Origin: Deltaproteobacteria bacterium | GTDB lineage: Bacteria > DRYD01 | Length of the DNA stretch: 7,988 nt | NCBI GenBank assembly: GCA_028276365.1 | Contig: JAPYWL010000052.1 | Coordinates: forward strand, 1 to 7,988 | Direction of reading: 5' to 3' | Shown here: positions 4,268-7,988 of the stretch, in pieces | Layout: each line of letters starts with the position of its first letter | Position numbering within the stretch: the first letter of the stretch is position 1 | Notes under the pieces: model-generated | Seen by the model: the letters and a program-made list of their open reading frames with translations, nothing else | Told to the model about the DNA's origin: nothing | Database searches by the model: none | Translations under genes and position numbers: made by a program

Positions 4268-4903
4268 TTAAAAAGGATCATTACCAGAACTTCCCCCTCT
4301 TCCTCCTTGAGCAGAACTACTACAAGGACCCATATATACTAATAATAATACTAAATCACTAAACTTATTATCAAAATCTAAATCAAAAAAAGCTAAATAT
4401 TCATCTTTTTCTTTATGTTTAAATATCATTATATATTTGTTATCTAAATTTGAATTTATAATAATTCTATCACTCTTATTAGATAAAATAAAAGATAAAG
4501 AGAAGGGAAGGGCTTCAAATTTTGTAGGGTTTTGTGTAGTTATAAAGTATGTTTCAATGTTTTTTGTTTCACCTTGTAAAGGAATTTTATTAAAGAGTTT
4601 ATAAAAATTTATTGAAGCATTTTGAAGATTCTTTAAATCAGGAATTAATCCTATTTCTATCTCTTTGTTTTTTAAAGTTTTAGATTTTTTGGGTAAATCA
4701 TAAATGGAATAAACTGTAATTATAACATATTTACCTGGTTCTAAAGAAGATTGATAATAATTGTAATTTTTTAATTTTTCTTTTATTTTTTGAGGAATTC
4801 CATTAGGAGTCGGTAAAATACCACCAAACGTATTTAAACCTATTAATAAAAACAATAAAATACTTAATAATTTGAAGATTTTGTTTAATTTTGTATTCCA
4901 CAT
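4268..4903 (-). CDS. Secreted or membrane-anchored protein with Asp-rich loop and Gly/Ser tail, function unknown
   Basis: This 211-aa protein has no family I can name. Residues 1-9 are basic, and about 10-28 form a hydrophobic segment (LLSILLFLLIGL) typical of a signal peptide or N-terminal anchor, so the rest should lie outside the membrane. The middle (about 50-165) looks beta-rich. Near the end, FFDLDFDNKFSDLVLLL (172-188) has Asp at 174, 176, 178 and 183. This DxDxDN....D layout resembles calcium-binding loops and recalls the 'D.DfnDLvf' element of DUF4114-like surface proteins. The tail from Cys194 is CSSSAQGGRGGSSGNDPF, flexible and unlike an LPXTG or PEP-CTERM sorting signal. Gaps of 131 and 111 bp on either side suggest its own transcript. 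The ATG at 4903 has only a weak upstream AAG; see the misplaced Shine-Dalgarno at 4932-4939. Confidence 0.8.
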   Translation of the reverse strand: MWNTKLNKIFKLLSILLFLLIGLNTFGGILPTPNGIPQKIKEKLKNYNYYQSSLEPGKYVIITVYSIYDLPKKSKTLKNKEIEIGLIPDLKNLQNASINFYKLFNKIPLQGETKNIETYFITTQNPTKFEALPFSLSFILSNKSDRIIINSNLDNKYIMIFKHKEKDEYLAFFDLDFDNKFSDLVLLLVYMGPCSSSAQGGRGGSSGNDPF

Positions 4904-5034: not shown

Positions 5035-5910
5035 TTAAAGATTATTAAAGATTGAATTATTAAAATGTAAAGTTAATACTCTACTACTTTGATTTATATA
5101 TTCTAAATTGATTATAACAAAATTGTTTTTATTTATATTTTTTAAGTAAAACTCTAAAGTTAATTTATTAGCCCATTCAACTAAGTTTATGGTATCATTG
5201 TTTTGTAAATATTGAATAAAATCTAACTCTTTTTCTAAATTAATAGTTTCATAGTTTTCTAATCGATATAGATCCCAATGAATAATATTTAAATTATCTA
5301 TTTTAAATTTATTCATAATACTGAAAGTAGGACTGTTAGTCTTATCAATAATTGATTTAATAAATGTAGTTTTTCCAGCTCCTAAATCCCCTGTAAATAA
5401 AATATTAAAATACCCTAAATTTCTTATATTTTGCTTTATTAAATTAGAAATATCTAAAGCAAGCAATTTTGTTTGCTCTATATTCTTTAAATAAAATATA
5501 TAATAGTTACTAAAATATGGATAAATATTTAAATTTGTATTTATTTTAATCTTTTTTTTAGCTTTTAAAAAAGATATATCAATTTTTTTAATATTTTTTT
5601 TATAAAATAAAAATGGAGTTAAATAATAAAAATCTTGATTTTTGTTAAAGATTAAATCTGATATTAAAATAAACCCATTTTTAATATACTCTTTTTTATT
5701 TTTATAAACTATTTTTGATTTAACTAAGAAATAAGCATTTATTACGTCTTGTATTTTAGTGGTTAGAGTTTCTGTATTTGTATCGAAAAAATAAGGTCTT
5801 ACCTCTAAATCTAAGAAATTTTCTATATTTACATTATTATCATATATATCCCAAACTAAAAAATTTGAAAAATCAGATTCTTGTAAATCTTTTATTTTTT
5901 TAGATATCAT
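5035..5910 (-). CDS. tsaE: TsaE (tRNA t6A biosynthesis ATPase) with an extra N-terminal domain
   Basis: TsaE is the P-loop ATPase that works with TsaB and TsaD to add threonylcarbamoyl to A37 of ANN-decoding tRNAs. The TsaE domain covers about residues 145-291. It has the Walker A GDLGAGKTT (174-182), SPTFSIMN (193-200), HWDLYRLE (211-218) and LVEWANKL (243-250), all in the usual order. Typical TsaE is about 140-165 aa, so the 291-aa length reflects about 145 additional residues at the N-terminus. That part contains FLVWDIYDNN near 17-26 and LDLEVRPYFF near 33-42. It faintly recalls a family of small uncharacterised bacterial proteins with a VWEF...TTVRP pattern, but I cannot name it. There is one continuous frame with no sign of a frameshift. 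The chosen ATG at 5910 lacks a good Shine-Dalgarno. The TsaE part is very sure; the role of the extension is unknown. Confidence 0.93.
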   Translation of the reverse strand: MISKKIKDLQESDFSNFLVWDIYDNNVNIENFLDLEVRPYFFDTNTETLTTKIQDVINAYFLVKSKIVYKNKKEYIKNGFILISDLIFNKNQDFYYLTPFLFYKKNIKKIDISFLKAKKKIKINTNLNIYPYFSNYYIFYLKNIEQTKLLALDISNLIKQNIRNLGYFNILFTGDLGAGKTTFIKSIIDKTNSPTFSIMNKFKIDNLNIIHWDLYRLENYETINLEKELDFIQYLQNNDTINLVEWANKLTLEFYLKNINKNNFVIINLEYINQSSRVLTLHFNNSIFNNL

Positions 5911-5941: not shown

Positions 5942-7282
5942 CTATAATTTGTTTACTTCATTAATAAATTCATAAAGTTTCTTTTGTAAATTTTCATAAT
6001 CAGTAGTTAAAGAAATCCCCCCTAAAACTATTCCTTTAACTCCTATTTCATATAGAATTTTTATATCCTTAGGCTCTATCAATTTTTGAGTAGGTATCAA
6101 TATAGGAATTGGGGAATTATTTACTAATTTTGAGTAATTTAAAATGTCTTCTAAGGTTAATTTAAAACCATATTGTGATTTATCTATAATGGAAGCTTCT
6201 ATTGCTGAGATTTTTAAAAAATCCAAAATTTCTAATTCCTCTTTATTTAAAACTCTATTAATAGCTACTACTTTTTCTACACTTTTTGGTATACGTAAGT
6301 AATAAGTCGTAAATGAATCCATAAATATATCAATAAAATCTACATAAGTATTTAATTCAATATGATTTATTTCTTCTAATTCTTCTTTAATATGTCCAGG
6401 TACTAAACCAACAGTTATATTAGGATTTTCTAATAATATATTTATTATATTTTCTTTTTCCTCTTCCCAACTCTTAAACTTATAATTACTTACTGGGTGA
6501 GTTATATTAATATGAAATTTAATTATATTTATATTATTTTTTATAAGAATATTTAGTAATTTAGGATCGCTATTAAAAGGAGATAAAATAATAGAAAACT
6601 TATTTTTCTTTAGTTTATAACTTAATTTTTTATTTTCCAAAGTAGGTATTATATCATAGCTACCTACTTTTAAATCTAATTTTATATTTTTTACCTGATT
6701 AATTTCTTCAGCTTTTACTATATCATCTAATATACTTTTTTTACTTTCTTTTTCTAATTTATCTAAAAAAACTGATATTCCTGAATATTCTATATTGTAA
6801 AATATCTTTTGAATTAGTTCTTTGACTTTTAAAGGGTAAGAAACTAACAATTTATATTCCCCAATTTTTTCTTTTATATCTAAATAAGCCGCTTTATCTA
6901 AAATGTAAGCACTTACTATATAACTAAAATCGCTATCTTTTTTTATTATAAATATATTTAATTTTTTAGCTTGATAAGGATTTAAGATTTTATTATATTC
7001 AACTAATTTATTTATATTTTCATCTAAATTTAGTTCATCAAGATCTATATAGTTTACTTCTTTAAAAAGGGATTTTATGGTTTTGTCATTAGCTACAAAA
7101 ATAGTATATAGTTCTAAAAACCTTTCTTGGGAAAATAACTTTAATACACTTTCTTCATTAATTTTTTCTAGGCTTTGATTTACTTTCTTTAAAAAATTAT
7201 TTACTACTTTTTTTTCTTCTTTTTGTAATAAATTATTTTTGATTATAAATTCTAAAAAAGAATAATAATAATTTTGCAGCAT
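5942..7282 (-). CDS. Two-domain protein: degenerate GspE/MshEN-type N-terminal module plus TIM-barrel-like domain, function unknown
   Basis: I do not recognise this 446-aa protein as a named enzyme. Residues 1 to about 165 resemble the N-terminal domain of type II secretion/type IV pilus ATPases. There is a helical pair (FLEFIIKNNLL at 9-19), then NYIDLDELNLD near 77-87 and a mixed alpha/beta segment matching the 'fiDLdel.ld' and 'fpi...l.va' pattern. The c-di-GMP contact motif RLG...G of MshEN is not kept (SFLE at 8-11, Asn17). Residues of about 220-446 alternate strands and helices like a (beta/alpha)8 barrel: IILSPF, IIKFHIN, ITVGLVPG, VDFIDIF, PIPILIPT and a final GVKGIVLGGIS resembling a C-terminal phosphate-binding loop. 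There is no signal peptide or membrane segment and no ATPase domain. It starts 10 bp after accD and ends 31 bp before tsaE, consistent with one operon. No clear Shine-Dalgarno precedes the ATG. The domain calls are by eye. Confidence 0.75.
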   Translation of the reverse strand: MLQNYYYSFLEFIIKNNLLQKEEKKVVNNFLKKVNQSLEKINEESVLKLFSQERFLELYTIFVANDKTIKSLFKEVNYIDLDELNLDENINKLVEYNKILNPYQAKKLNIFIIKKDSDFSYIVSAYILDKAAYLDIKEKIGEYKLLVSYPLKVKELIQKIFYNIEYSGISVFLDKLEKESKKSILDDIVKAEEINQVKNIKLDLKVGSYDIIPTLENKKLSYKLKKNKFSIILSPFNSDPKLLNILIKNNINIIKFHINITHPVSNYKFKSWEEEKENIINILLENPNITVGLVPGHIKEELEEINHIELNTYVDFIDIFMDSFTTYYLRIPKSVEKVVAINRVLNKEELEILDFLKISAIEASIIDKSQYGFKLTLEDILNYSKLVNNSPIPILIPTQKLIEPKDIKILYEIGVKGIVLGGISLTTDYENLQKKLYEFINEVNKL

Positions 7283-7292
7283 TAAAATTAGT

Positions 7293-7988
7293 TTATAGCT
7301 TTATTTTATAAAAATAAAAAGAATTTATAAATTTTAATAAAGTATTTGGGATATTATGTCTATGAACTATATTATCAATAAGTCCATATTTTAAACAGAA
7401 TTCAGCGGTTTGAAAATCTGGTGGTAATTTTTGTTTAATTGTTTGTTCGATAACTCTTTGTCCTGCAAATCCTATTAGTGCTCCTATTTCGCTAAGAATA
7501 ATATCTGCTATACCTACAAAACTGGCAGCAACTCCTCCTGTAGTTGGATGTGTTATAACATTTATAAAAGGTATCCTGTTTTTATTTAGTAATTTAATAG
7601 CAGATACAGTTTTAGCCATTTGCATTAATGAGATTATACCTTCTTGCATTCTTGCTCCACCTGATGAAGAAAAAATAATTAATGGGGTATCATTTTTTAA
7701 GGCATACTCAGAAATCAATGCTATTTTTTCTCCTACAACGCTTCCCATTGATCCTCCCCTAAAATTAAAATCCATTACCCCTACACTAACTTTATATCTA
7801 TTTTTATCTCCTTTTAAGTATCCGTATCCTACTATAATAGCATCTACTAAATTAGTTTTTGTTTGATCTTCTTTTAATTTTTTTGAATAATCTTCAAAAT
7901 TTAAAAAATCTTTAGGATAAATATCTTTATATAATTCAACAAAATCATCAAATGTGATTTTTATTCTATAATAAGCATTTATATTAAA
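7293..7988 (-). CDS. accD: Acetyl-CoA carboxylase carboxyltransferase subunit beta, 5'-truncated by the window edge
   Basis: AccD is the beta half of the carboxyltransferase that moves CO2 from carboxybiotin to acetyl-CoA, giving malonyl-CoA for fatty-acid synthesis in the cytoplasm. The frame stays open from the stop at 7293 to the window end, giving 231 visible residues. The first Met in frame (7775) is internal: the 71 residues before it read as AccD, with RIKITFDDF, a DFLNFEDY stretch and LVDAIIVG. Diagnostic motifs follow: DFNFRGGSMGSVVGEKI, SSSGGARMQEG, HPTTGGVAAS and RVIEQT. The missing part would hold the N-terminal four-Cys zinc finger, so its presence cannot be checked. One oddity is GQRVIEQT where most AccD proteins have GPRVIEQT. 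The stop lies 10 bp before the next gene, so the two are probably cotranscribed. The identity is secure; only the start is unknown. Confidence 0.96.
   Translation of the reverse strand, partial: FNINAYYRIKITFDDFVELYKDIYPKDFLNFEDYSKKLKEDQTKTNLVDAIIVGYGYLKGDKNRYKVSVGVMDFNFRGGSMGSVVGEKIALISEYALKNDTPLIIFSSSGGARMQEGIISLMQMAKTVSAIKLLNKNRIPFINVITHPTTGGVAASFVGIADIILSEIGALIGFAGQRVIEQTIKQKLPPDFQTAEFCLKYGLIDNIVHRHNIPNTLLKFINSFYFYKIKL

Follow-up and report, generated by a model that had tools for sequence, protein, structure and literature searches.

What task would fall to a protein that carries the docking domain of a secretion or pilus motor without the motor itself, and that bears an enzyme-like barrel in its place? 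This question is raised by gene X, a 446-residue open reading frame on the minus strand (positions 5942–7282) of the window, i.e., the whole 7,988-base stretch analyzed, which is one entire contig of a genome in 124 contigs. The MshEN/T2SSE_N domain attaches the GspE and PilB motors to the inner-membrane platform and to regulators, and MshEN domains are chiefly known from motor ATPases and as c-di-GMP receptors. A sequence-only reading of this DNA had noted in gene X an unusual fusion of a GspE/MshEN-type module to a TIM-barrel-like domain; predicted structures match both halves, and this anatomy, a MshEN-like domain followed by a barrel and devoid of an ATPase, is well supported.

The reality of gene X is indicated by its reading frame, its orthologues and the purifying selection acting on it. 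Orthologues are present in all six genomes of the window's family, the five others being 37–74% identical; one of these runs off its contig, and another is disrupted in its N-terminal half. The phylum sample comprised seven genomes, namely these six and G006, which belongs to another family of the same order; gene X was not found in G006, the sole genome of that other family and 73% complete. The named relatives of the source genome are MAGs, one of them labelled Candidatus Calescibacterium, a hot-spring lineage (PMC4791363). Compared with the nearest relative, the whole gene gives dN 0.15 and dS 0.78 (dN/dS about 0.19), the N-terminal domain dN 0.15 and dS 0.72 (about 0.21), and the barrel dN 0.13 and dS 0.90 (about 0.14); the linker (residues 166–215; positions 6638–6787, minus strand) evolves fast, with a dN/dS of about 0.47, i.e., under weaker purifying selection than either domain, and is modelled with low confidence (pLDDT under 50). 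The AlphaFold model of the full-length protein has a mean pLDDT of 73.5, the domains scoring higher. The low dN/dS values of the two domains indicate that both are maintained by selection, and thus that X is a real fused gene, the join not being an assembly artefact. The disrupted copy lies on contig C71 (L015 3737-4893) of genome G004, a genome 71% complete: an internal deletion, a stop and a change of frame interrupt its N-terminal half, whereas its barrel remains open throughout and could start at a GTG. This break could represent either decay or poor assembly.

The N-terminal domain, residues 1–165 (positions 6788–7282, minus strand), adopts in prediction the MshEN/T2SSE_N fold. Folded alone by AlphaFold, with an alignment of six orthologous sequences, it reached a mean pLDDT of 91.5 and a pTM of 0.85; a helical part (about residues 2–72) precedes an alpha/beta part (about 76–162), so that the two-subdomain MshEN architecture, a four-helix bundle plus a three-stranded alpha/beta part, is present in the predicted structure. 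Foldseek against the PDB returned at ranks 1–22 exclusively N-terminal domains of MshE, PilF, PilB, XpsE, EpsE and GspE or models of pilus machines, PilF and PilB being those of Thermus and X. citri, respectively. VIA-align placed the same kinds of proteins at ranks 1–17, with Z scores from 11.3 to 7.0 over up to 138 residues, and the first unrelated fold scored only Z 4.0.

At the sequence level the relationship is far less visible. The Pfam model PF05157 (T2SSE_N) did not match X at E<=1, and in the window's genome it matches GspE only; neither Pfam nor NCBIfam returned a significant hit for either half when X and its relatives were searched, and sequence searches of the PDB with X gave no match. 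Profile comparison by hhalign with a set of 32 GspE N-terminal domains, taken from related and distant genomes, aligned residues 75–161 with an E value of 1.5e-4 and a probability of 51.5%; none of 59 column shuffles reached this value (best 3.5e-3), and six windows from the ATPase part, together with the barrel alignment, gave E values of 0.15 or worse. With shallow alignments, five sequences against five, the probability was 0.4%. An N-terminal domain profile searched against 192 genomes recovered X itself and three matches at E 0.005–0.009 outside its family, which were judged to be due to chance. Thus, structure and profile are in accord and the sequence signal alone is borderline; Pfam and NCBIfam being silent on X, the MshEN assignment rests on the predicted structure and a modest profile score. 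The proposal that residues 1 to about 165 are of the pilus/secretion ATPase N-terminal type is therefore borne out by fold and, weakly, by profile.

The ATPase that normally follows such a domain is missing, as the sequence-only reading had it: Pfam finds no T2SSE match in X, and a TIM barrel occupies the C-terminal half in place of a RecA-like ATPase with a Walker A motif. The loss of the c-di-GMP contacts, also claimed from the sequence, holds against the published motif, which PMC5013675 gives as a tandem of the 24-residue pattern RLGxx(LVI)(LVI)xxG(LVI)(LVI)xxxxLxxxLxxQ, together with a relaxed form. Neither copy, even in this relaxed form, is present in the four X proteins examined; in a global alignment, the motif I positions of X are occupied by S8 for Arg, F9 for Leu, L10 for Gly, N17 for the second Gly, K24 and N28 for two Leu, and L31 for Gln. 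The relaxed motif was also not found in those GspE products adjoining X that were examined; its absence from X is thus unremarkable by itself. Relatives encode a second GspE/PilB-type protein (L098 2445-4169, L097 5144-6868) which, unlike the product of the X-adjacent gspE, appears to retain the tandem motif, e.g., LIGQVLVEKGLISHEILNTALDYQ. Six matches to GGDEF proteins are found in the window's genome, and a gene for a GGDEF-EAL protein is found three genes beyond X in the G002 genome.

The C-terminal half, residues 216–446 (positions 5945–6637, minus strand), is predicted as a (beta/alpha)8 barrel, and not as another fold, on the grounds of the AlphaFold model and structure matches. The model contains eight beta/alpha units between residues 230 and 445, with strands at 230, 253, 290, 316, 336, 360, 394 and 417 and helices between them; among the matches listed, the best are phosphate-binding TIM barrels, headed by the TrpA homologue BX1 (Z 21.4, rmsd 2.7 over 224 residues, 10% identity). 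The barrel is not considered a TrpA, since only the fold matches, at 10% identity, and neither Pfam nor NCBIfam gave a TrpA match at E<=1. By sequence, it belongs instead to an unnamed family of stand-alone proteins of about 225–265 residues, for which no Pfam or NCBIfam model was found. Members occur in an Eremiobacterota MAG and four further genomes of other families, in every genome examined of two small uncultured phyla, and on plasmids of Rhizobium, Sinorhizobium, Neorhizobium and Deinococcus, the annotated copies being called "hypothetical protein". Twelve residues are invariant in all 26 family members (in X numbering, S234, K255, H257, H262, A340, E362, A363, Y371, D379, P397, Q399 and G421), and further ones are nearly so. 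X is 24–33% identical to the stand-alone members aligned and retains all 12, an indication that the active site of its barrel is intact.

The genes that surround the stand-alone barrels point to carbohydrate uptake. On the plasmids of Rhizobium, Sinorhizobium and Deinococcus the barrel is found with a LacI regulator, an FAD-dependent oxidoreductase and a sugar ABC transporter; in G342 its neighbours include a solute-binding protein as well as genes that resemble, by inspection only, those of a permease and an oxidoreductase. Other stand-alone barrels adjoin DUF4127 and FAD_oxidored genes, and clusters of a barrel with DUF4127 and an FAD-dependent oxidoreductase recur in distant phyla (L042 6782-11305, L043 7052-11575, L062 6097-9492), those of L042 and L043 additionally containing an MtnA-type gene; a literature search on DUF4127 found no paper. 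An MtnA-type gene lies directly beside the stand-alone barrel in four genomes. MtnA is present in all seven genomes of the window's phylum and lies off the contig of X in all six that carry X. A role in methionine salvage, which could be read from the MtnA adjacency in one other phylum, is not adopted, because MtnA and X are on separate contigs and other barrels are found beside sugar transporters.

Upstream of gene X itself, the gene order is conserved. The 3′ part of accD (positions 7293–7988, minus strand; Pfam Carboxyl_trans), cut by the contig end, precedes X, with 10 bp between its stop and the ATG of X in the ORF list of the window. The first 127 bases of contig C6 repeat the final 127 of the window exactly, and C6 carries the start of accD and an intact gspE; given this exact overlap, the order gspE-accD-X holds in the window's own genome. 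Wherever contigs of the window's family show the region, the three genes follow one another in this order, in both genera, accD and X being separated, or overlapping, by a few to 15 bases, and the gene before accD is an intact gspE/pilB ATPase gene. In G006, the gspE on contig C24 has no accD after it within the short contig. On the 3′ side of X, tsaE follows in the window's genus and a glycosyltransferase and an aconitase in the other; since the order after X differs between the genera, gspE-accD-X is the conserved unit. The tsaE gene (positions 5035–5910, minus strand; Pfam TsaE 2.6e-21), which follows X only in the window's genus, is thus outside it. Its product has about 140 extra N-terminal residues, the Pfam TsaE match covering residues 142–252, and a similarly long protein is encoded in a relative of the same genus (L012 6743-7627). 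Further along, at 4268–4903 on the minus strand, lies the gene of a secreted-looking protein of 211 residues, which has a CSSSAQGGRGGSSGNDPF tail and is matched by no Pfam model; a homologue follows tsaE in the same relative (L012 7713-8351). The pairing of X with accD, to which the sequence-only reading had drawn attention, therefore stands as a conserved adjacency; it was however incomplete, the unit being gspE-accD-X with an intact ATPase gene upstream. Indeed, since gspE precedes accD, accD as the only functional partner of X is set aside.

The explanation preferred here, which on the sequences and models we judge an even call, is that X catalyses a reaction of a sugar or sugar phosphate and carries a domain with which it docks at the pilus/secretion platform. 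The barrel would be a catalyst of the isomerase, epimerase or lyase type, and the N-terminal domain would act as a protein–protein docking module bringing it to the platform, through a GspE-binding GspL/PilM-like partner, a PilZ-like protein or GspE itself; assembly of the machine and a step of carbohydrate metabolism would thereby be placed together, and any effect of c-di-GMP on X would be indirect only. We infer the substrate, the partner and the regulatory direction; the sugar context of the stand-alone relatives, together with the conserved barrel residues, is taken to favour an enzyme, and the gspE-accD-X operon suggests that metabolism may be linked directly with the surface machinery. 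Two observations speak against a docked enzyme: X lies beside a fatty-acid gene, a neighbour that does not directly point to sugar metabolism in this lineage, and the N-terminal half is broken in G004 but the barrel frame is intact, so that docking may be dispensable there, unless the break is an assembly error.

A tentative variant, possible although rather unlikely, is that X is a metabolic input module, the barrel sensing or processing a sugar-phosphate and the MshEN domain competing or pairing with GspE at the platform. If this were true, the activity of the pilus or secretion machine would track carbon status, and type IV pili or type II secretion would be controlled through a MshEN fold devoid of c-di-GMP binding.

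Similarly unlikely is a purely regulatory X, the barrel of which would bind a sugar-phosphate-like ligand without relevant catalysis while the MshEN-like domain signals to GspE or to the platform, which would make X the metabolic equivalent of control by c-di-GMP. Such a regulator would be well placed in an operon with gspE, its N-terminal domain being an ATPase-free copy of the docking domain of the motor, and another input would be useful to adjoining GspE products that lack the relaxed c-di-GMP motif; however, the retention of all the family's invariant residues fits a working enzyme better. Equally doubtful is that X is a soluble metabolic enzyme which captured an old MshEN domain solely for oligomerization or stability, its position near gspE being a relic and the surface machinery playing no part. 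The divergence of the N-terminal domain to below Pfam detection and the G004 copy, broken in this domain and open in the barrel, would be expected from this history, but purifying selection on the N-terminal domain is clear (dN/dS about 0.21) and the order gspE-accD-X is retained in both genera. Finally, a cooperation of X with AccD, in which it would adapt or regulate acetyl-CoA carboxylase and provide the link to lipid metabolism raised by the sequence-only reading, is very improbable: accD does adjoin X in every genome where the region is visible, be it by the 10-bp gap, by a few bases or by an overlap, but Pfam, NCBIfam and structure matches show no likeness of either domain to a carboxylase subunit or a biotin domain, and the barrel relatives of other phyla are not beside accD in the neighbourhoods examined.

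Returning to the docked enzyme, the presence of an ATPase-free, motif-less MshEN domain with an apparently intact enzyme in a motor operon points to a docking role of this domain that can be separated from ATP hydrolysis as well as from the sensing of nucleotides. X also exposes an enzyme-like family of "hypothetical proteins" whose members are repeatedly found together with sugar transporters across several phyla.

Compared with known systems, X shares with the MshEN/T2SSE_N domain (PF05157) of MshE, PilB/PilF, XpsE and GspE the two-part fold over 165 residues, is in the same register as the GspE domain by the borderline profile alignment, and shares its operon with the gene of a true GspE; it differs in being devoid of the ATPase and of both c-di-GMP motifs, and in having diverged below Pfam detection. 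TrpA, thiamin phosphate synthase, ribulose-phosphate 3-epimerase and KGPDC have a fold like that of the X barrel, with Z scores of about 19–21 for TrpA and its homologue BX1; the identity with these and other phosphate-binding TIM barrels is, however, about 10%, and no Pfam or NCBIfam match supports a closer relationship. The stand-alone barrels of Rhizobiaceae, Deinococcus and uncultured phyla have the whole barrel and its 12 invariant residues in common with X, but they have no N-terminal domain and occur in contexts of sugar uptake or of DUF4127, FAD-oxidoreductase and MtnA, whereas X is a fusion. Fusions of MshEN to domains other than the motor ATPase are already known, the partners including glycosyltransferase, REC, HD-GYP, CheA, CheX, cyclase and kinase domains (PMC5013675); the main text of that paper names no TIM-barrel fusion, the literature searched yielded no description of a barrel partner, and the barrel of X adds to the partners given there. 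The closest parallels for the N-terminal domain itself are those of XpsE, likewise without the c-di-GMP motif (PMC5013675), and of Xanthomonas citri PilB, in which the motif is lost and one face binds PilZ, with a separate face for PilM by comparison with the GspE-GspL and EpsE-EpsL structures (PMC8389850). Like X, these proteins have a MshEN fold devoid of the motif, which in PilB serves protein docking; in XpsE and PilB, however, it is joined to a motor ATPase, and in X to an enzyme-type barrel.
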